From assembly GCA_023512255.1 (NCBI GenBank), contig JAILZY010000019.1:1-52718 (forward strand): a DNA stretch of 52,718 nucleotides. The letters are read 5' to 3'. Source of the stretch: a bacterium. GTDB lineage: Bacteria > SZUA-182 > DTGQ01. Shown piece after piece: positions 2,771 through 17,353 of this stretch (positions are counted from its first letter, which is position 1; each line of letters begins with the position of its first letter). The notes beneath the pieces are model-generated. The model saw only the letters and a program-made list of their open reading frames with translations, made no database searches and was not told where the DNA came from. The translations under genes and the position numbers were made by a program.

Positions 2771-3502
2771 GATCTTGACTCATCTCCTGGCGCAAAAATC
2801 TTTCCACTCTCCTGATCTTGTAAATAATCTCTAGTTGCTCTTCAGCGGGAAGAGCCATAAGGTCCATGACCCGGGTCAAAAATACATAGTCTATTGTGCC
2901 GCTCATTCCATCCCTAGCCTCAAAGCAAAGGTCATGAACCTCAAGGCAGGTTTCATTGGCCACCAAAAGCCGCGGCGGCTTTCGGCCCGGATATCTGCTC
3001 TCACAATCATCACAAGGTGCGGCGGCTGAAAGCCGAGCGAATCTATTCTGGCATCTGGCGCAATAAGCTTGATTTTCGCCGCACTCGGCTATTCGCCAGC
3101 GCCAGAAGTCTATGAGTTTTTTACCTCATCCTCCACTTCTAGCTGCCGCCTCGCCTGGGCATCGAGGCAGGCTGCGGCCACCAAATTCGTGAAGCCCGGG
3201 AACTGCTCGATCAGCTTAAGCTTAGTTTCCTCACTGAATGGAATTGGCTGGCCTCTGCCATCCTTGAGCTCCCAGTCGATGACTTGATGCTGGAAGATCT
3301 TGGGCAGGTAAATATCAGGATCAATATTTCCCCGGCTACTGCCTTCCGCCTCACGGCGAATGCGGCGAAGCTCGGATCTAGTCAAGGGCTTAATCTTGAT
3401 TCTAAATCGTAGCCCCTCGTATTCTGATTTTTCGAATACCCTATGATTTCCATCAATCCAGACTCCTCCCTCTTGCTGATTAAGATCAAGTAGCAGATCC
3501 AT
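2760..3502 (-). CDS. Tail assembly chaperone, -1 frameshift fusion (GT-type)
   Basis: Predicted 247-residue fusion made when ribosomes slip back one base at 3116-3122. The first 129 residues are those of the 3110-3502 product. The -1 frame is then open without a stop from 3116 to 2760 and adds 118 residues. That extension begins LIDFWRWRIAECGENQAYC and carries cysteines spaced C-x6-C-x2-C-x12-C-x2-C, ending in CDDC, a probable zinc ribbon. The remaining part is acidic and helical. Only 68 residues of this extension follow a start codon (GTG at 2966), and that shorter reading would cut off the zinc ribbon, which argues for the fusion. Lambda G/GT and many other tail modules use the same arrangement just upstream of the tape measure. 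Confidence 0.82.
3110..3502 (-). CDS. Tail assembly chaperone, short form (G-type)
   Basis: A 130-residue protein, ATG at 3502 preceded by AGGAGAG. It is acidic and mostly helical, without signal or membrane segments (LLLDLNQQEGGVWI at the start, LTRSELRRIRREAEG in the middle, QARRQLEVEDEVKNS at the end). Its position between the tail-tube gene and the tape measure matches the short tail-chaperone protein, which coats the tape measure before tube polymerisation. It stops at TAG 3110-3112, only one codon beyond a slippery heptamer, so it is the majority product of a programmed frameshift. No sequence family is claimed; the call rests on gene order plus the frameshift signal. Confidence 0.75.
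   Translation of the reverse strand: MDLLLDLNQQEGGVWIDGNHRVFEKSEYEGLRFRIKIKPLTRSELRRIRREAEGSSRGNIDPDIYLPKIFQHQVIDWELKDGRGQPIPFSEETKLKLIEQFPGFTNLVAAACLDAQARRQLEVEDEVKNS
3116..3122 (-). promoter_or_regulatory. Programmed -1 frameshift site A AAA AAC
   Basis: On the minus strand the chaperone gene reads GTA AAA AAC TCA TAG. The heptamer A AAA AAC is in the zero frame exactly as required for X XXY YYZ tandem slippage and is one of the most efficient bacterial -1 sites. After slippage reading resumes CTC ATA GAC and remains open to 2760. The zero-frame stop comes one codon after the heptamer. No strong downstream pseudoknot was confirmed by eye. Confidence 0.85.
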
Positions 3503-3526
3503 GGCTTGCTCTCTCCTTTCTCTTTT

Positions 3527-4480
3527 TTAGTCATAACTTGCCTGACCGTTAACCAACACTACCCGAAAATCACTGGCTGCGACTGCGCTCTGATAGTAGC
3601 CGATAAAGCTCAAATCCAGATAAGCTCCCCCTGGCCCTTCAATTGCCGGTGATTCATGGCTATACTCGATCTCATCAGCCAGAAAGCTTATAGAATGAGC
3701 CCCATGAGTGCAGGTTACTGAAAGTGAGCTTTTGGTATGACTTCTCCCCTTAGCAATGAGGGTGTCAGCATCAAACAGGCCGCGGATCCTACCCTCAAGA
3801 GCAGGTGCGCCCTCGCTGGCTATCGTTCCCTCACCGCTGCCGACTAGACCAAAGCCGATAACGGTATTATTTTGGAAGTTGAAACTGATCTCCTCCAGGG
3901 TATCTATAGCGGATCCCCCTTCAGTGGCCGCGGCATCACAATTGTTGAAGATGATCGCTGGTCTGCTAAGATCAGATGCTGGCGGCTCCTGATACGAGCT
4001 TTCCCGGTATTCTTCCTTAGCGGCAATGATCGACAGCCGATAGCGCAGTTGCCCCCCGCCGCCAAAGCTGATGCTGAATCCGGCTGCCTTACAGCCGCGG
4101 TAGAGATAAAATCTGTTCTCATCAGGCCAGCCCTTTTCAAGCAGAAACGAAGGTGTAGCTGAACCTATCTTAAAGGTATGGGTATACGGATCAGAGGAGC
4201 CAGTGGTGGTCGGTGCTCCGAAAACCGCCTTGAGAATATAGCCGATAGCGATCAAATCAAGTGGACCAACTAAATTGCCGCTCACGGCTTTATTTGGGTA
4301 GAGCGGCTTGGCTGCATGTCGGCCAGCCCCAAGGAGGCTTGAGGCTTGAGGCTTTTGCTCCACTCTCAGATCGCACGAGTTAAAGGGGAGTCTGATGGCT
4401 GCCGCCGAAGCTGGCAGCGTTTTAAATGCTGGTTCAAAATCAAGCAGCACCTGGCTGCTGGCATTCGTTGCCCAACCCAT
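3527..4480 (-). CDS. Phage tail tube protein
   Basis: A 317-residue protein starting at the ATG at 4480, which has a strong GGAAGGAG site 8 bases upstream; an extended reading from 4540 overlaps the previous gene and lacks this. The sequence is beta-rich and Gly/Ser-rich, with LVGPLDLIAIGYILKAVFG, a motif region PYTHTFKIG and repeated strand-forming segments (FSISFGGGGQLRYRLS, EISFNFQNNTV, AYLDLSFIGYY). These features fit tail-tube proteins of Mu-like and other myo- or siphophages, which also sit right before the chaperone pair. No tail-sheath gene (typically near 400-500 residues) is present next to it, so a non-contractile tail is more likely (inference). Confidence 0.72.
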   Translation of the reverse strand: MGWATNASSQVLLDFEPAFKTLPASAAAIRLPFNSCDLRVEQKPQASSLLGAGRHAAKPLYPNKAVSGNLVGPLDLIAIGYILKAVFGAPTTTGSSDPYTHTFKIGSATPSFLLEKGWPDENRFYLYRGCKAAGFSISFGGGGQLRYRLSIIAAKEEYRESSYQEPPASDLSRPAIIFNNCDAAATEGGSAIDTLEEISFNFQNNTVIGFGLVGSGEGTIASEGAPALEGRIRGLFDADTLIAKGRSHTKSSLSVTCTHGAHSISFLADEIEYSHESPAIEGPGGAYLDLSFIGYYQSAVAASDFRVVLVNGQASYD

Positions 4481-4511
4481 AATGGTAACTCCTTCCAAAG
4501 TCTTGCCCGTC

Positions 4512-4949
4512 TTACCAGTTCTTGTGGATGGTAAAGACAAAGGTTACGGTTTTCTTCTGAATCATCTCGTTCTTATCCCCGAAAAATTGGCTGGGATCTT
4601 CCGAGATGGGAAAAACATTCTGCACACCGACAAGATCGAATCTCTGGTCAATCAGACTGGCAATCACATCATGAGCAATCGCTAGCACACCGTGAGTGCC
4701 TATGAGTGATTCTTCAGGTTTTAAAATTCGCTGAAAGATGCTTACTCTGACCTCAGCGTACTGGAGATAATTCCTGGCCAGCATCTGCTCATTCCTGATG
4801 GCGCCATCTTTGATGACGATAGCCGGAAAATTGCCCGAAGGTGGAAGAAAATTCTCATCGCTGGCAATCGAGATATCACTATCCCGTATATAGCTCAGAG
4901 TTTCGTCGGCCTGAAGATGCGCTTTAATTGCTTTAAGGAGCTCTCTCAT
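4512..4949 (-). CDS. Phage neck/tail-completion-type protein
   Basis: A 145-residue protein when started at MRELLKAIKAHLQADETL (ATG at 4949). A longer reading from 5018 would take its first residues (MVWKEPFFKRVP) from the repeat A hairpin and is probably artefactual. Features include IPAIVIKDG-like central strands (FPAIVIKDGAIRN), a conserved-looking VRVSIFQRI strand and a C-terminal KKTVTFVFTIHKNW strand. That pattern is typical of tail terminator or head-tail joining proteins, which lie between the gp36-type protein and the tail tube. The assignment is by position and fold-like pattern, not a recognised family signature. Repeat A copy 2 lies immediately upstream and might affect its transcription. 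Confidence 0.55.
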   Translation of the reverse strand: MRELLKAIKAHLQADETLSYIRDSDISIASDENFLPPSGNFPAIVIKDGAIRNEQMLARNYLQYAEVRVSIFQRILKPEESLIGTHGVLAIAHDVIASLIDQRFDLVGVQNVFPISEDPSQFFGDKNEMIQKKTVTFVFTIHKNW

Positions 4950-4983
4950 AGATAAACCAATCTCTGATTTTGTGATTTTGGAA

Positions 4984-5104
4984 GGAACCCTTTTGAAAAA
5001 GGGTTCCTTCCAAACCATCCTCCTAAAACTTTAATAACATAGCTATTAAAGTTTTAGGAAAAGGGGTATTAGGGGAAAACCCTTTTTCAAAAGGGTTTTC
5101 CCCT
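4984..5104. repeat. Repeat A, copy 2
   Basis: Same three-hairpin unit as at 1-120, same orientation. The middle stem here opens CCTAAAACTTTAATA and closes TATTAAAGTTTTAGG, against a longer TTAATTAA stem in copy 1, so the loop region changed while pairing was kept. A 21-base piece of the third hairpin plus AAATTT is duplicated in tandem just after it (about 5090-5131). The copy separates the 5144-5425 gene from the neck gene. Confidence 0.85.
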
Positions 5105-5143
5105 AAATTTAAAGGGTTTTCCCCTAAATTTAATCCATCCAGA

Positions 5144-5425
5144 CTACATCAGGTGAATATAAAGCTTTCCGCCGCTTATGGTTACGATATTAATTCCCTG
5201 AACTCCCCGGCGATCGAGCCTTCGCTCTTCAATGGCCTGACTCTCACTATGAGGAGCGCCGGCCAGGGCCCGTATCTTCCACAGCATATTGCCGAGGCTA
5301 TCCCGAATTTCAAGATCATCATTGGCTGCCCCTGGGTGCCATTCAAGGCTTTTGATATCATAGACACCCGATCTGCTCTCAACACTGTCGATTTCCATTG
5401 GATTCTTAGTCCAATCATTGGCCAT
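5144..5425 (-). CDS. Small prophage structural-module protein, unknown
   Basis: A 93-residue protein with GGAG upstream of ATG 5425. I do not recognise it. It has predicted beta-strand alternation (YDIKSLEWHPGAANDDLEIRD, MLWKIRAL, VQGINIVTISGGKLYIHLM), which suggests a small beta-barrel such as a decoration or head-tail joining protein. It lies 62 bases after the gp36-type gene and before repeat A copy 2, within the prophage head-to-tail transition. There are no membrane segments or cysteines. Confidence 0.6.
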   Translation of the reverse strand: MANDWTKNPMEIDSVESRSGVYDIKSLEWHPGAANDDLEIRDSLGNMLWKIRALAGAPHSESQAIEERRLDRRGVQGINIVTISGGKLYIHLM

Positions 5426-5486
5426 AGGGTCTTTCTCCTATCTCTCTTTGGCGAGGTTGATCTCTGGGTTACTCTTCAAACAAAAT

Positions 5487-6155
5487 CTAATATCTATCCA
5501 ATGTCCCGAAAGATCCATTACTGATGCGGCCAAGCGAGAAGATTCGATCTTGCCTGCTGCCTGTAGCCGCCGGCCCTAGATGGCGACTTTCCGCTGGAGC
5601 ATCAGCGCCCAGGGAAGCAACCCCCTGGGCCACATTCTCAAGGAATCTGAGCGCGGCCCTGTAGCGCTCCTGCCACTCGCCAGCTAAAAATCCCCGGCGT
5701 CGGAAGTAGAGATTGTAGATAGCCAGATCAACAGCGATCTTTCGGACAATGGCCGGCACAGTCAAAAGCGGCAGCTCATAGCGCCCGGCAAGATAGCTCT
5801 CGATCTCAGCCTCAGCATCAGCTATGGCCCGCTCAATCACCGAAGGGTTAATGGTATTTAACTCCCTGACCAAAGCCCCGTCAGGGTGAGGTGCCGGCGT
5901 GGTTCTATTCACTCCTCGCACACAGCCGAGGAGCTGATTGCCGCTTTTGCCGCCATAGTCTATCTGCTCAGAATCGATCTCCAGTCTGCCAGAGTCAGGA
6001 AAGCCGCTAGTGTCAATGAGCGCAATCACTTCTTGGGCAGCATCAATTTCCCCGCTCAGATGGCCTGAAGCAAGATGGCTCCGATCATCGGTCAACTGAA
6101 TGAGCTCATCCTCTGGTATCCACTCTTTTAAATACTCAAGGCTACAGTAAGCCAT
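5487..6155 (-). CDS. Mu gp36-like (DUF1320) protein with inserted domain
   Basis: A 222-residue protein with GGAG before ATG 6155. The two ends match the gp36/DUF1320 pattern: N-terminal LKEWIPEDELIQLTDD, then AIADAEAEIESYLAGRYELPL with the typical VPAIVRKIAVDLAIYNLYFRR segment, and a C-terminal ALRFLENVAQGVASLG. Between them, residues about 30-105 form an insertion with the phrases DTSGFPDSGRLEIDSEQIDY and LLGCVRGVNRTTPAPH. This small beta-domain motif is seen in other phage structural proteins. Normal gp36 homologues are about 140 residues, so this is a domain-insertion variant. It probably acts at the head-tail junction. Confidence 0.75.
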   Translation of the reverse strand: MAYCSLEYLKEWIPEDELIQLTDDRSHLASGHLSGEIDAAQEVIALIDTSGFPDSGRLEIDSEQIDYGGKSGNQLLGCVRGVNRTTPAPHPDGALVRELNTINPSVIERAIADAEAEIESYLAGRYELPLLTVPAIVRKIAVDLAIYNLYFRRRGFLAGEWQERYRAALRFLENVAQGVASLGADAPAESRHLGPAATGSRQDRIFSLGRISNGSFGTLDRY

Positions 6156-6191
6156 AATTAGCTTTCTCCTGCTTTTTCTGGCTACCAGCTA

Positions 6192-7172
6192 CTAGCTGGC
6201 GATGGTGTTGTACCACAGATAGCCAAGGTCTGGCCCGGTCTGGATGATGCAGACATTTTCTTTCACCTCATACACATCCTGATTTTCAGCCGGCTCATTC
6301 CAGACCCTAGTGCTTCGAGCCAGCCCGCTCGGATAAAGCACCCTGACCTGATAGCCGGCACTTGGAGTCTTAAGCCCCGGCACCCCTGGCCGATAGAAGA
6401 GGAAAGCCGCTCCCTTGCCGGCATTCTTTTCCCATATTCTGGCTGCGGTAAAATCGCTTCCATCCTTTTTCTCCTGGGCTCCGGAGTAGATAGCTCCGCC
6501 AATCAGGACCTCATCCAGATCAAAGAGCGCGGCAATCAGCTCAGCCGAGATAATGCCCCGCTGAGTGTATTTGATTCGCTCAAGCACCGTAGTTTCCATT
6601 TTTAGCTCCTTCAGGGTATTTGAAGAAAGCATCAGGGCATTAGGCCTAAAACCGGTATTGCTCTCGATCCGGTCAATGGCAGTCTCAACATCCCTGATAA
6701 AGGTATTGCCTGCCCCAGCCGCCCATCTGCCTTGCGCATCCTCCCCTCCTGGCAGATCAGACCAGGTGCTGGTGAAAACAACCTCAGCCACTCGCCGCTC
6801 TTTTTTCAGGTCGATCTTCATGGTGCAAAATTCAATAGCATCCTGCTCCGGCTGCAAGGGTGGGGTATTTGGCAAGGTGGCCAATTGCCGATCCTCTTCG
6901 GTTACTTCCTTGGCAAAGGCATACTCGGTGGCCTTAATGGCTACGGTGTCGATCTTATAGCCGCCTCTGGCTGACCTTGTTCCTGGGGCTCTTATGGCCG
7001 CCTCATCCCGGAACCAGTCACTTTTGAGATACCGGCCGATTCTGGTCTCGGGCGAAGGTGAGTCAATGATCGGAAAGACCCGATCGGCAATATAGGCGCG
7101 GTTTCGGTAGCAAAGAGAAACATTGGCTAGCGGCCCAGAGACTAATAAACTTCGTACATCTGGCTGTCCCAT
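6192..7172 (-). CDS. Phage major capsid protein
   Basis: A 326-residue protein with GAGGAG before ATG 7172. The N-terminus (LANVSLCYRNRAYIADRVFPII) followed by RIGRYLKSDWFRDEAAIRAPG, then IKATEYAFAKEVTEE, matches the major-capsid type found next to DUF935 portals: a short N-arm, then an HK97-fold core including WSDLPGGEDAQGRW and FRPNALMLSSNTLKEL. The C-terminal segment (ENVCIIQTGPDLGYLWYNTI) is also typical of this group. Its place between the decoration protein and the gp36-type gene is the canonical head-module order. The protein is expected to form the capsid lattice around the scaffold encoded from 8929. Confidence 0.82.
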   Translation of the reverse strand: MGQPDVRSLLVSGPLANVSLCYRNRAYIADRVFPIIDSPSPETRIGRYLKSDWFRDEAAIRAPGTRSARGGYKIDTVAIKATEYAFAKEVTEEDRQLATLPNTPPLQPEQDAIEFCTMKIDLKKERRVAEVVFTSTWSDLPGGEDAQGRWAAGAGNTFIRDVETAIDRIESNTGFRPNALMLSSNTLKELKMETTVLERIKYTQRGIISAELIAALFDLDEVLIGGAIYSGAQEKKDGSDFTAARIWEKNAGKGAAFLFYRPGVPGLKTPSAGYQVRVLYPSGLARSTRVWNEPAENQDVYEVKENVCIIQTGPDLGYLWYNTIAS

Positions 7173-7329
7173 GAATTTTTCTCCTCTCTTCTTATGTAGG
7201 CAGTGGGGTTTTGGTAAGATTTAATCTATCTTCTCCACTGATCCTGATAACGAATTGATTGATAATTGCTGTGATATTTGCTTGCTGATATTTGCTATAG
7301 CTTGTGCGAATTTTACTTTTAGTAATTAC

Positions 7330-8103
7330 TTAATGGACTCCTGCCCCAAGACTGTAAATGGTTGCCGTTGACTCATCATTCATAACCCAGAGAAAGCGCC
7401 GGCTGTTATTCTGAGCCACAGATGCCGTGCCGGATATGGTTATCCCTGAGCCGGCAGTCAGGGTAATGGTCTCGGCCGCATCGGCCGCGTTCCGAATGAC
7501 AAATTCAAAGCTCACGCCAGCCACACTGCCGCTATATCCAGCCTCAGTCAGGGCCGCAGCCATTTGGGCAGCTGAGGGAGTCTGATCAGAGCGATTGGCT
7601 CCATTTGGATCTCGAATAATCAGCCCACCAAGCAATTGAGCAGCCGTATAGGCGACATCGCCAGCAGTATTGATGGTTGAAACACTGCTTCGGCCAATAG
7701 GGGTTTGGGGATCGTAGGGAATAGGCCCGATCAGCTCCACTGCGCACAGCTCATCTTCGGCCTGCGCAGGCTCAAGAACCCGGGCCCTGGCCAGCTTCCA
7801 ACCATCGCCCACGGCAGCCTCGGCCTTGCCTGCATCGGCCGCGCTGACGTATTCTGGCTTGACAAAGGTGCCTGGGCCAAGGGCAGAGGCTGCTACCAGC
7901 TTGCTCTTTCCAATCAGCATGACACTGCCTGCCTGACCGCTGGTGGGTGCATCCTGTAGGATGCCGAGGGCTCGTTCATTATTTGAATCCGGCAGGCGGA
8001 TTTTCCCTGTGGTCGGATCAAGAACCACAAAATGATATTGGTAATTTGACAAATCTTCTGCAGCTTGAAAGGAAAGTCTAAGAACGGCATTTTCAGTACT
8101 CAT
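7330..8103 (-). CDS. Capsid decoration/cement-type protein
   Basis: A 257-residue protein with AAGGAG before ATG 8103. The first ~120 residues resemble DUF2190-type capsid cement proteins: VVLDPTTGKIRLPDSNNERALGILQDAPTSG, VMLIGKSKLVAASALGPGTFVKP and a closing CAVELIGPI strand. The second half (from about residue 145) is a separate beta-rich domain with VSFEFVIRNAADAAETITLTAGSG and a C-terminal RRFLWVMNDESTATIYSLG. Such a tail resembles the extra beta-domain seen in some decoration proteins. It would bind the outside of the capsid or stabilise hexamers. A 157-base spacer separates it from the capsid gene. Confidence 0.68.
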   Translation of the reverse strand: MSTENAVLRLSFQAAEDLSNYQYHFVVLDPTTGKIRLPDSNNERALGILQDAPTSGQAGSVMLIGKSKLVAASALGPGTFVKPEYVSAADAGKAEAAVGDGWKLARARVLEPAQAEDELCAVELIGPIPYDPQTPIGRSSVSTINTAGDVAYTAAQLLGGLIIRDPNGANRSDQTPSAAQMAAALTEAGYSGSVAGVSFEFVIRNAADAAETITLTAGSGITISGTASVAQNNSRRFLWVMNDESTATIYSLGAGVH

Positions 8104-8308
8104 CTTTCTTTCTCCTTAAAACCTTTTTCTCTCCTTAAAACCTTTTTTTCTCCTTAACCTTGGATACCTTACCGTAACCTCAAATACGTTACCGGGCAAT
8201 TACTTCAATTAGTTATGCAATAATTACTTATGCAATTACTTAATCTACTTGCAATTACTTACAATTAAGGCCCAATTAAGTCCGCTGCTCGGTGCGGCTT
8301 CTCATTCC

Positions 8309-8929
8309 CTATAGCCCCCGCCCAAGACGAATCTCCTGCTCATACTCTCTGACCAGGTCAGGATTTTCTCTCTGAACCTCACTGAAGGCGAGGCTATAGT
8401 CTAGCCTTGGATTGCTCTTCATTTTGGCGGCAATCAGATCGCTCAAAACTTGTCCAGCACTGCCTGAGGCAGCGACATTTTTAGCCCTGGTGGCCCACTC
8501 ACTGAAATTGACTACTCGGGGCAGCTCCTGTAAAAACGAGCAAAACCACTGATACGGGCTCTCATTTTTCCCCTCGGCAAAGGAAAACTCTCTCTCAGCA
8601 TCAAGCTGTTCCATGAATTGAGCAAGCCCCATCCGCTCCCAAGCCGGCAGCAGTTTGCCGGCCGCAAGCTGTTGTGAGATAAACTCTTTGATTTGCTGGC
8701 GCCGAGCGGCCATCTTCTCCCTTTGTCTGGCTTCAGCAAATTCTCTGGCTGCATCACGACGGCCCTGCTCTCTGGCTTCATCAATTTTCTTGGCCGCCTC
8801 ATCAGCTACCTGATTCAGCCGCTCGGAAAACTCCAATAAGCTTGCTTTGAGCTTTTCCTCAAATTCAGTCCTAAGCTGCTCCCGCTCCTGATCGAGGAGA
8901 GCCTTCATTTGCTCCTCGCTATAGGTCAT
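8309..8929 (-). CDS. Scaffold protein from internal in-frame start
   Basis: Within the protease gene, ATG at 8929 (MTYSEEQMKALLDQEREQL, residue 196 of the long form) is preceded by GAAGGAGG with 8 bases of spacing, a better site than that of the full-length gene. Initiation there would give a 206-residue coiled-coil scaffold with the same C-terminus. Mu I/Z and lambda C/Nu3 use this nested arrangement. The predicted coiled coil covers roughly residues 5-100 of the short form. Confidence 0.72.
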   Translation of the reverse strand: MTYSEEQMKALLDQEREQLRTEFEEKLKASLLEFSERLNQVADEAAKKIDEAREQGRRDAAREFAEARQREKMAARRQQIKEFISQQLAAGKLLPAWERMGLAQFMEQLDAEREFSFAEGKNESPYQWFCSFLQELPRVVNFSEWATRAKNVAASGSAGQVLSDLIAAKMKSNPRLDYSLAFSEVQRENPDLVREYEQEIRLGRGL

Positions 8930-9514
8930 GGCGCCATCCTCCTTCTGTTGTTGACTTGCGGTTAGATTGATTGCCCTATTTGTGATTACTGCTCCTGCTC
9001 CTACTCCTTTTTCCGTTTCTTCTTCTTCACCTCTAGCTGAAGGTGCCAGAGAGTCGGAAAAAAACAGACTGTATTCGCCCTCGGCAAATTTTAGGTCAGC
9101 TAACCCCTTAACTGCCGGCGGCATACCGCCTAAAAAGCCCACATGCCGAAGCCGCCCATCGGGGTAAAAGCTGGCCGAGCGCTTTTTGTACAGCCCCTGC
9201 CGAACCGCTTGGGCAAACTCTGGCACAACATCACGAAATTTGGCCAAAAGCACATTGATAAGCCGGCCATCCTTGAGCCTTTGAACCCCTTTTTTGAGCG
9301 CACTTACCCAGCCGAAAGCCGGAGAGTTATCCCCGGGGTGCCCGACGGTGATCGGCGGCTCGTGATATTCAGGATCAAAGGTTTGAACTGCTTTATCAAT
9401 CAGCTCATCTCCGTTATGCTCGCGGCCGCAGCTGTCGATCTGCTTTCCGCCGGCAAAAATCGGCACCCAATCGTCAAAACCTGAAAAATCCCTGCTCAAT
9501 GGATCGCTACTCAC
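8309..9514 (-). CDS. Mu gpI-like prohead protease fused to scaffold
   Basis: A 401-residue protein with start GTG at 9514, 11 bases after AGGAGG. Residues 1-145 match the Mu I-type prohead protease: FDDWVPIFAGGKQID, then PPITVGHPGDNSPAFGWV, and RSASFYPDGRLRHVGFLGG with PPAVKGL. Residues 196-401 are a charged coiled coil (repeated Glu/Gln/Ala/Arg, e.g. LRTEFEEKLKASL and AAREFAEARQREKMAARR) and serve as the internal scaffold. After assembly the protease is expected to degrade the scaffold. An internal ribosome site at 8929 probably yields the scaffold alone. No Mu gp30-like minor head gene lies between portal and protease. Confidence 0.8.
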   Translation of the reverse strand: MSSDPLSRDFSGFDDWVPIFAGGKQIDSCGREHNGDELIDKAVQTFDPEYHEPPITVGHPGDNSPAFGWVSALKKGVQRLKDGRLINVLLAKFRDVVPEFAQAVRQGLYKKRSASFYPDGRLRHVGFLGGMPPAVKGLADLKFAEGEYSLFFSDSLAPSARGEEEETEKGVGAGAVITNRAINLTASQQQKEDGAMTYSEEQMKALLDQEREQLRTEFEEKLKASLLEFSERLNQVADEAAKKIDEAREQGRRDAAREFAEARQREKMAARRQQIKEFISQQLAAGKLLPAWERMGLAQFMEQLDAEREFSFAEGKNESPYQWFCSFLQELPRVVNFSEWATRAKNVAASGSAGQVLSDLIAAKMKSNPRLDYSLAFSEVQRENPDLVREYEQEIRLGRGL

Positions 9515-9609
9515 TTGTTTTTCATCCTCCTTTCTCTTGATTTACCTGATTTGCCTTATCTTGTAGCTTGTCTTGTCCCTTGCCTTGTCCCTTTCTTGAG
9601 TTACCTTAA

Positions 9610-10851
9610 TCAGTCTTGTTGACCTCCACCGCTTACCACCTCCTCACCCTCTGTGGGCTGAGGCAGGCCGTAGGTTTCATAAAAATAGTTTTTGGCCACT
9701 GGCAGCCCGATCTCTTGGACCAAGGTCTTATCAATCTGGCTTCGGGCAAAAAGGTCTGGCTTTTTACCGGCATGAGTTACCAGTCTTGGGTAGCTGGTTA
9801 CGCCGGGAAAGTTATAGTCAACAATCCAGGGAATTAGCACTCGGCTCAAGTAAGCATCGAGCAGGTCCGCATCAGCCTCGATGATATCCTGCCGCACCTG
9901 CTCGTGAATCTGGCTGGCGGCATAAGAGCCTCGGCTGGCAACTTCAGTGGTCAGGGTCTGGCCGAGGACCACCTTGGAGATCTGCTGATCAAAGTACTCA
10001 CAAGCGCTCCTGTATGAGCCATCGCCCTGCCGTGAGGCCTCCATAAGCTCGATGGACATAGAGTCTGGGATAACAATTCCGGTCTCGGTTCTGATGGCAT
10101 CAATGGCTTCTAAGAGCTTCCCCCGCTGCTCCGAGGCCTGAGGAGGGTATTTGCCAACCGGGGTCGGCATGCTGAATTTCTCCATGAAAATGACCCAAAA
10201 TTTTATCCCATGTTTCTTGAACCAGACCGGCCACCAAAGCTTTTGTCCAAGCCCCTGGCCGTAAGGGTTGTCGCTGTCGCCGTATTGGAAGATGAGAAAT
10301 TTGCGATCAGGGAGCGGCTCTCCACTCACTCGAGACTCCGGGGTAAGAAGCCGCGGCTCTCGCTCCAGAGTAAAGCAAAAGCGCCGCGGGTGCTTGCCTA
10401 AGAACTGATCAATGACAATATGCCCATCCCGCACCTTCCATATAATTTCCGCCCCCCAGTAGCCGTAGAGAATCGCCTGCAAGAGCTCCAGCCTCAGTTG
10501 ATCAAAATTGCAGCTCATCAGCACGTCTTCAACAAATCGAGCAATCTCAATATCTTGCTGGCTCACCTCCCTGACCGCACCTCTCCTCCTGACATAATCC
10601 CCAGCCGGCTGGACGCTCCATTCCTTGCCCACCACAGCCAAATAGCGGGTTTGCAGCACTGCGGCCGTATGGGCATCGCGGGCAATCTCATCGTAGAGCC
10701 TGATTCCACGGCCACGGGATTCGCTGAGCAGCACCGGATCCGGATTTTCAAGCCGCCCAATCCAGCCGCCGAAAAGATCAAGGTCTTTGTCAACCGTGGC
10801 GATTTCCTTATTCACTACAAGATTTGGAGATACCTCTCGTTTGCCTGTCAT
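9610..10851 (-). CDS. DUF935 (Mu gp29-like) portal protein
   Basis: A 413-residue protein with AAGGAG before ATG 10851. It shows the DUF935 pattern: an N-terminal LDLFGGWIGRLENPDPVLL, LYDEIARDAHTAAVLQTRYLAVVGKEW with WSVQPAG, a middle LQAILYGYWGAEIIW, and FMEKFSMPTPVGKYPP near residue 230. The C-terminal part has ASQIHEQVRQDIIEADADLLD, then LIPWIVDYNFPG, the usual portal stem region. It forms the dodecameric ring through which terminase packages DNA. It lies downstream of the large terminase after a spacer of 226 bases with duplicated segments, and upstream of the protease/scaffold gene. Confidence 0.88.
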   Translation of the reverse strand: MTGKREVSPNLVVNKEIATVDKDLDLFGGWIGRLENPDPVLLSESRGRGIRLYDEIARDAHTAAVLQTRYLAVVGKEWSVQPAGDYVRRRGAVREVSQQDIEIARFVEDVLMSCNFDQLRLELLQAILYGYWGAEIIWKVRDGHIVIDQFLGKHPRRFCFTLEREPRLLTPESRVSGEPLPDRKFLIFQYGDSDNPYGQGLGQKLWWPVWFKKHGIKFWVIFMEKFSMPTPVGKYPPQASEQRGKLLEAIDAIRTETGIVIPDSMSIELMEASRQGDGSYRSACEYFDQQISKVVLGQTLTTEVASRGSYAASQIHEQVRQDIIEADADLLDAYLSRVLIPWIVDYNFPGVTSYPRLVTHAGKKPDLFARSQIDKTLVQEIGLPVAKNYFYETYGLPQPTEGEEVVSGGGQQD

Positions 10852-10867
10852 ATAGATAACTCCTTAA

Positions 10868-11090
10868 GTCAAAGCTCTATTCATTGCCTTGCCTGCCGTT
10901 CAAAATTATTCAGTGCCTTGGTCTCATTGCCTTGGTCAAAGCTCTATTCATTGCCTTGCCTGCCGTATTACCTTATCTGCCATTGCCTGCCATATAGATA
11001 ACTCCTTAACTCCTTAAGTCAAAATAACTCCCTAGCCAAAAACTATTCTCAATATTCTCAAAAACTATTCATTATTCTCAAAAACTATTC
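10868..11090. repeat. Spacer made of short direct duplications
   Basis: The portal-terminase spacer carries repeated blocks: TCAAAGCTCTATTCATTGCC at about 10869 and again at about 10936, ATATAGATAACTCCTTAA at about 10851 and 10990, and ATTCTCAAAAACTATTCATT twice near 11055-11090, the last reaching the terminase stop region. No gene is seen here. The pattern is shared by other spacers in the window. Confidence 0.75.
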
Positions 11091-12649
11091 ATTGCCCTGA
11101 CGTAATCGCACTTTCGATGAGTGCTCTCAAAATCAAAATAAGCAGTGCGGGTGCGAAAATACCCAAGGGACATGCTGAGCATATCAGCCTGATCCGCTAT
11201 AGCTGACAAGGGGAAATGGGTAATCTCCTGCAGGAAATCCGCAAGCCAAGGGGCTCGGTCCGGCAGCCACACCAGCCCCGCCTCAATGGCCGGGCTCTCT
11301 TGGGCCAGGCGGGTGATTTTGTCCGCACACGGCGATGAGGGAAGGAGGGGAAGCGAGCACTCCATCGGCAGATCCTGCAAGAGTGATGAGCCTGTAGATT
11401 TATCCTCAATCAAGATCACATTGGGTGAGAATTTCTCAGCCAGCGCCCGAACCATGCGCTTCCCCTCCGGGTAAGTTAGCCAATCTCGGAAAACATCAAC
11501 CAGATAATAGCCCGTTTTGGTTCTTACCCAAGTGCCGCAAACCCAAGGGCAATTAATGAGCTCATCAGCCTTTTGGGCCGTATCCCAAGCCTGCACAACC
11601 TCAAGCCACTGATCGGATGACGGAAGCCTTTGATAAGTGCGAAACCAGGTAAGGTGCACCAGCCCTCCTTTTGAGGGCACAGGGTTTTGCTGTAATTGCC
11701 CGGCAGTGCCAAAGGTGCCAAGCATTCGTTTTTGCTCCGCTAACCACTCCCGATCAAACCGTTCCGGCCAGAGAAGCTCACCCTCTTGAGTGCGCGGATC
11801 CTGCACCCCCAGGCAGGTTATGCAGCGCCGCTCAGGCTCAAACTCCATCGGAAAGCAAAGATGCTCCCAGCCTCCCTCCCGAAGCACATGGCCGGTGAGG
11901 TCATCCTCATGAAGCCGCTGCATGATAATGACAATGGCCGATCGCTTTGGGTCATTTAGCCTGGTGAAAAGCTCCTGATCGAAGGTATCAAGGGCATTTT
12001 GCCGCTCAACATTAGAAAACATCGCCTGTTTGGTGTTATGGGGATCATCAATGATCAAAATATCCCCTCCCTCTCCGGTTACTCCTGAGGTCATGCCAAA
12101 GGCTACCCGACACCCCGTTCGGTTATTCTCGTATCTGGTCTTTTGGTTCTGATCCGAGGTGAAGCGAAAGCGATCTCCCCAGCCTGTCTGAAACCAAGAA
12201 GACATCATAATCCGCCGAGATTTCAGACAATCGCGAGTCGCCAGGGCATCCTTGTGCGATCCGGTCAAAAAGCGCTTGGTCGGATCCTGCAGCCAAACCC
12301 ACACCGGCCACATCACCGAGACAATGGTTGACTTTGAGGTCCGATAGGGCACATTGATCACCAGCCGGGTGATCTCCCCGCGAGTTACTGCCTCAAGGTG
12401 TCGGCAGATAGAGTCAATGTGCCAGTTGCCTATAAACTTTCGCCCCGGCTCTATCACCGGCCAGGCCGCCTCAATAAACGCCCGAAGCGACCCTTGAGCC
12501 CGATCATAGGCCTCCTGCTCAGCCGCTGAAAGCCCGCCGCGGCTGCCATTATCCCCAGGCGCGGCCAAAGCCACTAGACCCAGCTTGGCCTCATCCTGCC
12601 TCCTGCCCATTTCTCCTGCTGCCTCCTGCTCTTTTATCCTCTTCTTCAT
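11078..12649 (-). CDS. Phage terminase large subunit
   Basis: A 523-residue protein when started at ATG 12649 (MKKRIKEQEAAGEMG), which has GGAGG 9 bases upstream. A longer reading from 12820 would begin inside the terminator at 12783-12828 and is rejected. The N-terminal ATPase has RLVINVPYRTSKSTIVSVMW in the Walker A position (TSKST, a deviant P-loop) and GDILIIDDPHN as Walker B. The C-terminal RNase-H-like nuclease has VVQAWDTAQK and VILIEDKSTGSSLLQDL, with acidic residues suited to two-metal cleavage. It packages phage DNA together with the portal. No adjacent small subunit was identified upstream. Confidence 0.9.
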   Translation of the reverse strand: MKKRIKEQEAAGEMGRRQDEAKLGLVALAAPGDNGSRGGLSAAEQEAYDRAQGSLRAFIEAAWPVIEPGRKFIGNWHIDSICRHLEAVTRGEITRLVINVPYRTSKSTIVSVMWPVWVWLQDPTKRFLTGSHKDALATRDCLKSRRIMMSSWFQTGWGDRFRFTSDQNQKTRYENNRTGCRVAFGMTSGVTGEGGDILIIDDPHNTKQAMFSNVERQNALDTFDQELFTRLNDPKRSAIVIIMQRLHEDDLTGHVLREGGWEHLCFPMEFEPERRCITCLGVQDPRTQEGELLWPERFDREWLAEQKRMLGTFGTAGQLQQNPVPSKGGLVHLTWFRTYQRLPSSDQWLEVVQAWDTAQKADELINCPWVCGTWVRTKTGYYLVDVFRDWLTYPEGKRMVRALAEKFSPNVILIEDKSTGSSLLQDLPMECSLPLLPSSPCADKITRLAQESPAIEAGLVWLPDRAPWLADFLQEITHFPLSAIADQADMLSMSLGYFRTRTAYFDFESTHRKCDYVRAMNSF

Positions 12650-12782
12650 TCTTGTTATCCTCCAGGTTGTTTCTTCTGCCGGAGCCCCCCTTGACTGCTC
12701 CGGGATAATTCCCCAGATTACAGCAGCTTGCAGCCAAAAACAAAAATGCAGTAAACAAAAATTGCAGCCTAAAACCAGCCTA

Positions 12783-12828
12783 AAACAAAAAAGCCCGGTC
12801 AAACCATTTTCTGGTTTCAACCGGGCTT
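12783..12828 (-). terminator. Rho-independent terminator (minus strand)
   Basis: Stem AAGCCCGGT plus AAACCA at 12791-12806 pairs with TGGTTT plus ACCGGGCTT at 12812-12828. On the minus strand it is followed by TTTTTTGTTTT. It would stop transcripts entering from the right, upstream of the terminase ribosome site, so the prophage packaging operon needs a promoter between here and 12662 or antitermination. Confidence 0.85.
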
Positions 12829-13926: not shown

Positions 13927-16125
13927 ATGAGAAAATTTTTAAGCCACGCAAAACCTCACCTATTTTTTCTGCTTCAATTAGCCATTCTCAGCTTGGTCGG
14001 CTTTCAGCTTACCTCGCCCTGCCTTGCCGACACCAATGTCGGCGGCTATATCAGGACCAACACTGTCTGGACCGCGGACAAAAGCCCCTATGTCCTAACC
14101 AGCTCAATCATTGTCAACCCTGGTGTAACCCTGACCATTCACCCTGGGGTTGAGGTCAGGCTAGATGAAGGCAAGGGCATTCAGGTAGATGGCACCCTGA
14201 TCGCCCGAGGAACAGAGCAGGCTAAGATTATATTTACCAACAGCACAGTGAATAAACCTTGGGGATACATCTTATTTACCGATAGCAGTCAGGATGCCCG
14301 CTTCGATAATAAAGGCGCTTATGTCGACGGCTCGATCCTGGAATACTGCATTGTGGAGTATGCTAATGGCAAAGACAGAGAAGGAGCTATTGTCTGCGAA
14401 AAGGCCTCACCCTTTATTAACTATTGTCAGATCAGAAACAACGCCACCTCAGGTCTAAGGGTAAAGGCCGCATCCGGTCTGATAGTAGCCAATAGCACTA
14501 TAGAAAAAAATACCTCATCCTCTAATGATGGTGGTGGAATTAAGGCTACTGACAATAGCTCGCTGACCATTACCTCATGCGCTATCAGCAATAACACAGC
14601 AAGTGGCTCTGGCGGCGGGGTATATTGCTCCTCTGGCACTTTGACCATAAATTCAAGCCAGATCAGCAATAACACAGCAAATAGCTCTGGCGGCGGGGTA
14701 TATTGCTACGCCTCCTCCTCCTCTGGCACTTTGACCATAACTTCAAGCCAGATCAGCAATAACACAGCAAATGGCTCTGGCGGCGGGGTATATTGCTACT
14801 CTGGCACTTTGACCATAACTTCAAGCCAGATCAGCAATAACACAGCAAGCCGCGATGGCGGCGGGGTATGTTGCGACTCTGGCACTTTAACCATAACTTC
14901 AAGCCAGATCAGCAATAACACAGCAAGTGGCTCTGGCGGCGGGGTATATTGCTCTGGCACTTTGACCATAACTTCAAGCCAGATCAGCAATAACACAGCA
15001 AGCCGCTCTGGCGGCGGGGTATGTTGTTCCTCCTCCTACTCTGTCACTTTGACCATAAGTTCAAGCCAGATCAGCAATAACAAAGCAAGTGGCGACGGCA
15101 GCGGGGTATATTGCTACGCCTCCGGCTCTTACTCCTCCTCTGTCATTTTGACCATAACTTCCTCGGTCATCAGCAGCAACACGGCCTCTAACACCAGCGG
15201 CAATGCTCAGGGTGGTGGAATTTGGGTCAGCAACGGCAATAAGGTTCAGATCTCCTACAGCTTGATTATGGATAATTCAGCCAATAAGATGGCGGCTATG
15301 TATTGCCAAGGCAGCGGCTCAGGTAGCTCCTTAAAGCTTGTCGGCAATACCTTTGTCGGCAATAAGGGGAGTGGTGAGGCTTTCTATATCACAAAATTTA
15401 TCAGCTATACTATTAATCACAATAATTTCTGCAACCAAAACATCAAATATGAGTTCTATCGCGATGATCCTTCAACCTCATCAGTAGCTGATGCTGCCCA
15501 AAACTACTGGTGCACAGAGGATGAAAATGAAATTAGCGAGCGGATTTTTGACTTTTGGGACGACAGCAGCAAGGCTCGGATAGAATACTACCCCTTCCTG
15601 ACAGTGCCAGATCCGAATGCTCCCCTGCCTACATTCTATAAAGACAGCGACCAGGATAACTACGGAGATACCAGCCAAGCTGTCCAGGCGCTTGAGGCTC
15701 CCCAAGGCTATGTGAATATCCCTGGAGATTGCAACGACCGGAACAAAGACATCCACCCCGGAGCTCCTGAGCTTTGCAATGGGCTAGATGATGACTGTGA
15801 TGGTCAGGTGGATGAAAACCTGACCCAGCTTTGCCCGGATGGTAAAACCACAGCCACCTGCCAGAATGGTCAGTGGATTGGCTGCTCCACCACCCCACCG
15901 CCTCCCCCTCCGTCAATCCTTTGCGGTGATGCCGATGGCAACGGCAGTGTGGATATTGGCGATGCCCTGCTGATTGCCGAGTATGATGTCGGCCTAAAAA
16001 GTTCATCACAACTGCCTGGCTTTAAGGGCTGCGATGTCAATAAGGATGGGGTAGTGGACCTTTGCGATGCTCTGATGATCGCTGAATACGATGTGGGTCT
16101 TGTCCAAAAGCTTGAATGCAAATGA
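13927..16125 (+). CDS. Secreted beta-helix protein with MopE-like motif and dockerin
   Basis: A 732-residue protein with AAGGAG before ATG 13927. Residues 1-35 are a signal peptide (LFFLLQLAILSLVGFQL, ending in CLADT). Residues ~40-560 form a right-handed parallel beta-helix, with eight near-identical units of the type LTITSSQISNNTASGSGGGVYC between residues 213 and 435. Residues ~568-631 are the putative metal-binding MopE-type motif (DSDQDNYGD, GDCNDRNKDIHPGAPELCNGLDDDCDGQVDENL in pieces). A Pro-rich linker follows. Residues ~664-728 form a dockerin with two calcium loops, DADGNGSVDIGDAL and DVNKDGVVDLCDAL. It is likely exported and bound through the dockerin to a cohesin such as the next gene's product. 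Confidence 0.85.
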   Translation: MRKFLSHAKPHLFFLLQLAILSLVGFQLTSPCLADTNVGGYIRTNTVWTADKSPYVLTSSIIVNPGVTLTIHPGVEVRLDEGKGIQVDGTLIARGTEQAKIIFTNSTVNKPWGYILFTDSSQDARFDNKGAYVDGSILEYCIVEYANGKDREGAIVCEKASPFINYCQIRNNATSGLRVKAASGLIVANSTIEKNTSSSNDGGGIKATDNSSLTITSCAISNNTASGSGGGVYCSSGTLTINSSQISNNTANSSGGGVYCYASSSSGTLTITSSQISNNTANGSGGGVYCYSGTLTITSSQISNNTASRDGGGVCCDSGTLTITSSQISNNTASGSGGGVYCSGTLTITSSQISNNTASRSGGGVCCSSSYSVTLTISSSQISNNKASGDGSGVYCYASGSYSSSVILTITSSVISSNTASNTSGNAQGGGIWVSNGNKVQISYSLIMDNSANKMAAMYCQGSGSGSSLKLVGNTFVGNKGSGEAFYITKFISYTINHNNFCNQNIKYEFYRDDPSTSSVADAAQNYWCTEDENEISERIFDFWDDSSKARIEYYPFLTVPDPNAPLPTFYKDSDQDNYGDTSQAVQALEAPQGYVNIPGDCNDRNKDIHPGAPELCNGLDDDCDGQVDENLTQLCPDGKTTATCQNGQWIGCSTTPPPPPPSILCGDADGNGSVDIGDALLIAEYDVGLKSSSQLPGFKGCDVNKDGVVDLCDALMIAEYDVGLVQKLECK
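14563..15232 (+). repeat. In-frame tandem repeat in the beta-helix gene
   Basis: Eight units of about 75-100 bases with nearly invariant cores (ACTTTGACCATAACTTCAAG, then CCAGATCAGCAATAACACAG). All length differences are multiples of three and are confined to short Ser/Tyr/Ala-coding inserts (TCC/TCT/GCC codons) between units. The high nucleotide identity suggests recent expansion or gene conversion. Confidence 0.9.
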
Positions 16126-16153
16126 TAGGGTATTCTAAGAGGAGGTGATCTTG

Positions 16154-17353
16154 ATGATGAAGCTAATAAGGTCAAAGGCAAGGTCAAAAGCGAGCTTGAA
16201 AGTCTCGGCTTGGTTACTGCTTTGCAGTCTCTGCTTAGCCCTGGGCAGCTTACCTTGTGGCCCCCGCTGGTTTTTGGGGGCCGCGGACCTTTGGGCAGCT
16301 TATAACAATGCTGCCTTCTGGGCAGACGGGGCAGGGCAGAAGGTGAGCACGCTAAGCGTGTCAAAGGGTGATGAGATTCGGCTGATACTAAAGGCTGAGG
16401 TGCCAGCCTCAAAGGTCTTGCGGCTTTATAAATTCACTGTCGGCTACGATCAGAAGCTGGTGTCTGTGGTTGAGGCCAAAAAGCCGGAAGGAAACAGCTT
16501 TTCTGGCTCTATCAGCACCAAAACCGCAGGCGAGGTGGTATTTAATGGCTTTAGCACTGATGGAGTGAGCGGCCCGACCACAGTCAGCCTGCTGGAGCTG
16601 AAGCTTAAGAGCTTGGCCACGGGAAGCCTTAGCCTGAGTGCTCAGGTGAATAACTTTGGCTACGATGGTGGGGATCAATTCCCACCCACTATGCAGGCGG
16701 CCCAAATCAGCATTGAAGAGGGTGGGATCATACCTCCTCCCCAGCCGCCCCAGTGCAGCGAGGATGATTCAGGAGCAGTGGACATTCAGGGAAGTAAGGG
16801 AAGAATAGGGGGTGTGGCTCGAATTGTGGTCAGGATTCAGAATGCCCCTGATAAGATTGCCGCACTTGGCCTGAGAGTCAAGTATGATCCTGCGGTGTTC
16901 GAATATTCAGGTTTTGAGCCGGGAGAATTGACCAGATCGTTTGATCAGTTTAATGTCAATCCTGATCCTGATAGCCCCGGCCAGCTTATCATCGGAGGGC
17001 TGTCTACCGCCAGCAGCCTTGCTCAGGGGACAAGCGGCAGTCTGGTAGAGCTGAAATTTAAGGTCAAGGGCGGCCAGGAAAATCTGTGCTATAACTTCCA
17101 GGTCGAGAAACTGAAGGATGATATCGCTAGATTTTCCGCCAGCGGAGGCTGCTTCTGTATCAAAACCTGCAATGGAGACCTCAACGGGGATGGACAAATT
17201 ACTCCGGTTGATGCTCTGACTGCCTTCAAGTGCTATCTGAAATTAGGCCCCTGCCCTGATTGCACTGATGTTACTGAAGATGGTGAGGTTACTCCGGCTG
17301 ATGCCCTGTGCATATTCAAAAAGTATCTTGGCTTTCAATCCTGCCTGGATTAG
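16154..17353 (+). CDS. Secreted cohesin-dockerin protein
   Basis: A 399-residue protein started at ATG 16154, 8 bases after GGAGG. Residues ~1-45 include a signal peptide (SAWLLLCSLCLALGSLPCG). A first cohesin-like domain follows (VSTLSVSKGDEIRLILKAEV ... VVFNGFSTDGVSGPT). The second, at about residues 200-330, is clearer (IGGVARIVVRIQNAPDKIAALG, VKYDPAVFEYSGFEPGEL, LVELKFKVKGG). The C-terminal dockerin has two calcium loops (DLNGDGQITPVDAL and DVTEDGEVTPADAL). It starts 28 bases after the beta-helix gene, so the two are probably co-transcribed. A protein with both modules could link dockerin partners and be linked itself, like a small scaffoldin. No carbohydrate-binding or glycoside hydrolase domain is present, so a non-cellulosomal role is likely. 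Confidence 0.85.
   Translation: MMKLIRSKARSKASLKVSAWLLLCSLCLALGSLPCGPRWFLGAADLWAAYNNAAFWADGAGQKVSTLSVSKGDEIRLILKAEVPASKVLRLYKFTVGYDQKLVSVVEAKKPEGNSFSGSISTKTAGEVVFNGFSTDGVSGPTTVSLLELKLKSLATGSLSLSAQVNNFGYDGGDQFPPTMQAAQISIEEGGIIPPPQPPQCSEDDSGAVDIQGSKGRIGGVARIVVRIQNAPDKIAALGLRVKYDPAVFEYSGFEPGELTRSFDQFNVNPDPDSPGQLIIGGLSTASSLAQGTSGSLVELKFKVKGGQENLCYNFQVEKLKDDIARFSASGGCFCIKTCNGDLNGDGQITPVDALTAFKCYLKLGPCPDCTDVTEDGEVTPADALCIFKKYLGFQSCLD

Follow-up and report, generated by a model that had tools for sequence, protein, structure and literature searches.

A cohesin/dockerin gene pair that may serve as a cargo-plus-adaptor unit of a genus-wide, non-cellulosomal surface network

Two adjacent genes in a 52,718-nucleotide stretch of DNA (hereafter designated the window) encode a β-helix protein that ends in a dockerin and a protein that combines two cohesins with a dockerin of its own. 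The locus raises the question of whether the two products constitute a complete system, as the original prediction held, or belong to a larger assembly. Comparison of the source genome (G000; 3.83 Mb, 97% complete) with that of a sister species (G001) and with other genomes of the phylum leads us to lean, narrowly, toward the second answer. Judged from sequence, the bacterium, which is uncultivated, may carry on its surface a larger cohesin/dockerin network of non-cellulosomal type, in which the pair would form a cargo-plus-adaptor unit. Features of the locus are listed in Table 1.

Table 1 Features of the gene pair, with positions in the window.
Feature	Position	Strand	Basis
Gene 1, putatively secreted β-helix protein; MopE motif, class A dockerin at C-terminus	13927..16125	+	732 aa ORF; domain profiles
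Sec signal peptide of gene 1, ending at about ...SPCLA/DT	13927..14034	+	read off sequence
Tandem array in gene 1, ~78-bp units encoding PMP-type β-helix rungs	14584..15115	+	TRF
MopE-type motif (PF11617) of gene 1	15727..15816	+	54 bits, best of 24 genome matches
Class A dockerin of gene 1, two F-hand repeats DALLIAEYDVGL / DALMIAEYDVGL	15925..16089	+	profile match, alignment
Ribosome-binding site of gene 2, AGGAGGTGAT	16139..16148	+	sequence
Gene 2, putatively secreted Coh1-Coh2-dockerin protein, putative adaptor	16154..17353	+	399 aa; domain profiles, model
Coh1, outlier cohesin in its own clade (100/100 support)	16304..16738	+	profile, tree, fold match
Coh2, genome-wide dyad-type cohesin	16763..17167	+	profile, alignment, tree
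Class B dockerin of gene 2, C-terminal ...FQSCLD	17174..17350	+	profile, alignment

The domain order first read for gene 1 is confirmed by the position of the ORF and by Pfam matches to Beta_helix (E = 2.2e-21), Chlam_PMP repeats (E = 2e-16), Cu-binding_MopE (amino acids 601–630; E = 4.4e-13), and Dockerin_1 (amino acids 667–721; E = 3.4e-7). The domain matches identify the β-helix as right-handed with PMP-type repeats. The C-terminal part of the ortholog in G001 is 79% identical, and its frame is shorter (624 versus 736 amino acids); together with the 78-bp array, the shorter frame suggests that the length of the β-helix varies between the two proteins. Type I dockerins (PF00404) contain two duplicated calcium F-hand repeats and score above a cut-off of 22.9 bits. 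The gene 1 dockerin scores 30.8 bits, both of its repeats are readable, and its nearest sequence in the PDB is the ScaB dockerin 4uyq_B (E = 5.8e-8). The MopE-type motif had been taken as a hint of metal binding, possibly of copper or calcium; for copper we found no support. Gene 1 shares with the copper-binding protein MopE the PF11617 repeat motif only; this Asp/Asn/Cys-rich linker motif is repeated 24 times in the source genome and is not by itself evidence of copper binding. From the pattern of its Asp residues, we infer that the motif is more like a calcium-binding repeat.

The ATG of gene 2, at position 16154, lies 28 bases beyond the stop codon of gene 1 and is preceded by the ribosome-binding site AGGAGGTGAT. 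Pfam detects Cohesin in two stretches of the product (E = 2.3e-17) and Dockerin_1 (E = 9.7e-6); the dockerin scores 26.1 bits against the cut-off of 22.9. Assignment to the cohesin family (PF00963) was based on a profile score over the curated cut-off of 24.1 bits and on the jelly-roll cohesin fold. Coh2 scores 49.8 bits. Coh1 is weak by sequence, at 19.1 bits under the cut-off, and a search of the PDB with its sequence matched no cohesin; cohesins were reached only by fold comparison. A single-sequence AlphaFold2 model of Coh1 alone is all-β (pLDDT 67, pTM 0.61), and 17 of its 17 best matches in the PDB are cohesins. The model of the whole gene 2 product, which is of modest confidence (pLDDT 65.5, pTM 0.40), best matches the two-cohesin chain 3l8q. 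Because the Coh1 model matches cohesins first and the whole model matches 3l8q, the assignment of two cohesins to gene 2 is right. An adaptor scaffoldin unites one or more cohesins with a dockerin of different specificity in one non-catalytic chain. Gene 2 encodes cohesins and a dockerin with no catalytic domain, and their specificities, judged by sequence class, may differ.

Mu-like prophage genes, including those for a portal (PF06074) and a terminase (PF17289), occupy positions 686–12820 of the window and end ~1.1 kb to the left of gene 1. We considered the pair as phage cargo and rejected this possibility because the pair in G001 is flanked by transposase-like fragments and ordinary genes, with no phage genes. 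Scans for promoters and terminators gave results no better than shuffled sequence.

The source genome does not bear out a minimal two-gene system. Cohesin matches in G000 at E < 0.005 number 23, of which 20 exceed the Pfam cut-off, and 20 dockerins exceed theirs; the search for further dockerins that had been proposed as a check thus finds 18 others. Only 1 of 14 control genomes holds a cohesin over the cut-off, compared with 20 matches in G000, which indicates that the cohesins are not there by chance. Cohesins are present in eight of the nine phylum genomes examined. At E ≤ 0.001, these nine genomes contain 21 (G000), 25 (G001), and 0–9 (all others) cohesins. Similarly, gene 2 as a query finds 30 matches in G000, 45 in G001, and at most four in any other member of the phylum. 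The large cohesin expansion is restricted to the genus of G000 and G001, and the products of genes 1 and 2 are members of a genus-wide set of ~20 cohesin/dockerin proteins that probably link up on the cell surface.

Alignment places all over-cut-off dockerins of G000 except that of gene 1 in one class, designated class B, with a consensus of ~60 residues (GDLNGDGxITPADALxxFRCYLGxGPCPECADVNxDGxVTPADALCLFRKYLGxPSCLD). Class B proteins usually end in ...PSCLD, and 32 of the 42 class B dockerins in G000 and G001 end no more than ~8 amino acids from the stop codon. Thirteen proteins of G000, including that of gene 2, have the class B dockerin joined to a cohesin almost without a linker, forming a Coh-Doc dyad. 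The junction is near-constant (GGCFCLKxC-xGDLNGDG), and its cysteines are conserved among the 13 full dyads. A fourteenth dyad has its cohesin interrupted by a DUF333 domain (L046:4803-6194, G000:C26), and the same split is found in the sister species (L091:179-1561, G001:C22). A profile of the dyad cassette (A1) matches cellulosomal cohesins and dockerins in the PDB, with type I among the best. The G000 proteins that carry dyads are otherwise unrelated and include a C25 (gingipain-like) protease, a papain-like protease, VWA proteins, a squalene-hopene-cyclase-like toroid, PQQ propellers with Kazal domains, RHS and PKD/Lcl_C proteins, and others. An IMG/VR sequence filed as viral (3300031566_013262; L069:4416-5186) encodes a secreted 256-amino acid protein with a class B dockerin tail that is 61% identical.

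In the main rival to a network, the dockerin would act in cis, folding on its own cohesin or on the junction to generate a calcium- and disulfide-stabilized C-terminal cap or sorting tag rather than an intermolecular connector. A near-zero linker, conserved cysteines, and a fixed ...SCLD end across unrelated proteins favor such a cap, as do Desulfococcaceae HSG8 and HSG9, where a comparable dyad ends in a like way. However, five to six class B dockerins in G000 and ~16 in G001 have no cohesin beside them, other proteins of both genomes contain cohesins without a dockerin, and a class B dockerin may also be placed at the N-terminus or within the chain. Cohesin and dockerin distances among 12 dyads correlate weakly (Mantel r 0.31, p 0.13; r 0.34, p 0.045 upon removal of one outlier), which speaks clearly for neither cis nor promiscuous pairing. 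We consider the cis model unlikely and continue to favor dyads as connectors between proteins.

The cohesin proteins that lack dockerins frequently finish in a tail that is rich in Trp, Ser, and Phe and whose last residue is aromatic (SWYSSWSW, FPTAWSY, WSWKLNW). Examples are L029:5219-8497, L039:1652-2806, and L038:396-6299, and, in G001, L096:5801-9040, L123:3518-4624, and L122:2054-8104. This tail is perhaps a second kind of C-terminal signal.

The dockerin of gene 1 and Coh1 of gene 2 stand apart from the remainder of the set. The dockerins of genes 1 and 2 are of different classes and only 32% identical. Mean identity of the gene 1 (class A) dockerin to class B is 0.31, compared with ~0.6 within class B; it shares 0.89 identity with its ortholog in G001 and 0.55 with a dockerin of G003, which represents another genus of the same family. 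Coh1, its G001 counterpart, and a G003 relative on a long branch group in a clade (100/100 support) that excludes every other cohesin. Class A dockerin and Coh1 co-occur in G000, G001, and G003, and are adjacent in all three. Neither was detected in G002 or G004, both of which were searched for both, and G005–G008, searched with gene 2 only, yielded no match. In G001 (C10), Coh1 is duplicated so that the gene 2 ortholog contains three cohesins. In G003 (C322), ~0.6 kb separate the class A dockerin from the Coh1 match that follows it. There the contig ends within the Coh1 gene, and the dockerin is read in a different frame from the ORF that precedes it. Co-occurrence and adjacency in three genomes are small evidence, which nonetheless points to class A dockerin and Coh1 as a dedicated pair; we give the adaptor reading as a whole slightly better than an even chance. 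Another locus, in which a 785-amino acid β-helix dockerin protein adjoins a 1092-amino acid two-cohesin protein (G000:C122, conserved in G001:C67), was considered as a second case of orthogonal pairs and set aside, because its dockerin is no more than a variant of class B.

These classes bear on the initial model, in which the two proteins form an adhesion polymer by themselves and engage no further partner. The operon-like layout, which is conserved in G001 and partly in G003, agrees with this model. However, Coh2 and the gene 2 dockerin are part of a larger set, as a dozen dyads like theirs occur in G000, and we regard a closed two-protein system as very improbable. Polymerization as such is possible, but because their dockerins fall into different classes, the proteins are unlikely to substitute for each other within a single simple polymer.

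The description of the locus as a surface system with adhesion- or matrix-like domains is supported, and the statement that it contains no enzymes holds for the two genes themselves. It does not extend to the genome set. A C25 protease with a Coh-Doc dyad is found in both species; one further C25-dockerin protein and papain-like proteins also belong to the set. Both species also encode an exported γ-carbonic anhydrase with a C-terminal class B dockerin and no cohesin (L043:1058-2026, G000:C65; L118:4479-5708, G001:C22); the enzyme is Cam-like (PDB 3ou9, E = 1.6e-60). The sister species contains a 770-amino acid frame with a twin-arginine signal, a Ni-CO dehydrogenase, and a C-terminal class B dockerin (G001:C55:103655-105967; L110:2656-4968). 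CO dehydrogenases are normally cytoplasmic. In the G001 protein, the Ni-CO dehydrogenase domain is complete and of the anaerobic type (TIGR01702, 578 bits versus a cut-off of 478), the Cys/His cluster positions are retained in an alignment to 6elq, and a CFGCH motif lies near the N-terminus. G001 further encodes a GEGP-motif diheme protein with a C-terminal class B dockerin (C76; L116:3615-4982). The diheme protein and the dockerin-bearing CO dehydrogenase, both of which have a dockerin but no cohesin, are single-genome observations, and the two CO dehydrogenases of G000 are not of the dockerin-tagged kind. Literature searches returned nothing on point for a dockerin-bearing CO dehydrogenase or for cohesin, dockerin, and MopE motif together.

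Do these enzymes make the set a cellulosome or a related degradative complex? A cellulosome has dockerin-bearing glycoside hydrolases on a scaffoldin, a carbohydrate-binding module in the scaffoldin, and a cell-anchored cohesin. Pfam scans revealed no glycoside hydrolase among the dockerin proteins covered and no carbohydrate-binding module in the cohesin proteins covered; the set is therefore not a cellulosome. A cellulosome-like complex for degradation of protein or organic matter, in which β-helix and HYR/PKD proteins bind and C25 and papain-like proteases catalyze, draws on the proteases of both species and on a published case in Cloacimonadota with dockerin-bearing C25, S8, GH18, and GH57 enzymes (PMC8542988). 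Against it, most members are structural or adhesion-like, carbonic anhydrase and the G001 CO dehydrogenase do not degrade polymers, and dockerin-bearing glycoside hydrolases were not seen, which renders this model rather unlikely. Finally, the cohesin folds may bind a non-dockerin ligand such as a glycan or mineral, with dockerins as mere calcium-binding folding domains. Dockerin-like domains without a visible cohesin partner, including the dockerin-only matches in Phycisphaerales, fit this notion. We consider it improbable in light of the joint expansion of cohesins and dockerins in one genus and their fusion through a fixed junction.

A cohesin on the cell surface, proposed earlier as an object of search, has a candidate in G000. 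A 635-amino acid frame (C134) contains two cohesins behind a lipoprotein-type signal (...SLLAGC; lipobox judged by eye), and G001:C18 encodes its two-cohesin ortholog. The sequence of this lipoprotein makes it a plausible candidate cell anchor in both species. In the network that we favor, gene 1 would display an extended β-helix and its class A dockerin would dock onto Coh1 of gene 2. The Coh2-dockerin dyad would then plug this sub-assembly into the shared class B network, which could chain or branch because most members carry both cohesin and dockerin, and the two-cohesin lipoprotein would hold the network to the cell. One may speculate further, and tentatively, that a standard C-terminal Coh-Doc cassette acts as a universal plug from which the genus builds an extracellular network able to extend itself. 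Such a network would also carry redox enzymes and CO2-handling enzymes (γ-carbonic anhydrase in both species; in one of them, also the exported Ni-CO dehydrogenase and the diheme protein), and orthogonal pairs like genes 1 and 2 would add defined sub-assemblies.

Non-cellulosomal cohesin/dockerin sets have been reported in ANME archaea and their sulfate-reducing partners (PMC9012536, PMC10553843) and in Cloacimonadota (PMC8542988). Genomes reveal such systems but not how they are wired. The genus described here offers a readable case, with one dominant dockerin class, an outlier class tied by gene order to an outlier cohesin, and a candidate lipoprotein anchor, so that a few purified modules would suffice to test the wiring. 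The dockerin tags of carbonic anhydrase (both species) and CO dehydrogenase (sister species) would take scaffolded extracellular enzymes beyond polymer degradation, into the chemistry of gases and carbon.

Gene 2 resembles the adaptor scaffoldins ScaB and ScaC from the complex cellulosomes of Acetivibrio cellulolyticus in joining cohesins and a dockerin in one non-catalytic chain, and the nearest PDB entries, a ScaB dockerin for gene 1 and 3l8q for the gene 2 model, extend the likeness, which here comes from sequence and model. Unlike those cellulosomes, the pair has no cellulases, carbohydrate-binding module, or SLH anchor. Candidatus Stygibacter of the Cloacimonadota likewise has dockerins on gingipain-like C25 proteases, but combines one giant scaffoldin containing carbohydrate-binding modules with dockerin-bearing GH18 and GH57 enzymes (PMC8542988). 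The closest full dyads outside the family in our genome scan are those of Desulfococcaceae HSG8 and HSG9 (phylum Thermodesulfobacteriota), which are C-terminal, 38–44% identical, and end in ...NCLE (HSG8) or ...SCLD (HSG9); they differ from the G000 dyads in a longer cysteine-rich insert between the dockerin repeats. The sets of ANME archaea and sulfate reducers share with ours many cohesin and dockerin proteins, no cellulases, and scaffoldin-like proteins with one dockerin and several cohesins; a role for the sets in the extracellular space of the consortia has been proposed (PMC9012536, PMC10553843). Dockerins in those sets are commonly found on substrate-binding and S-layer proteins, whereas here a constant C-terminal dyad is appended to many unrelated secreted proteins and a lipoprotein is the candidate anchor.
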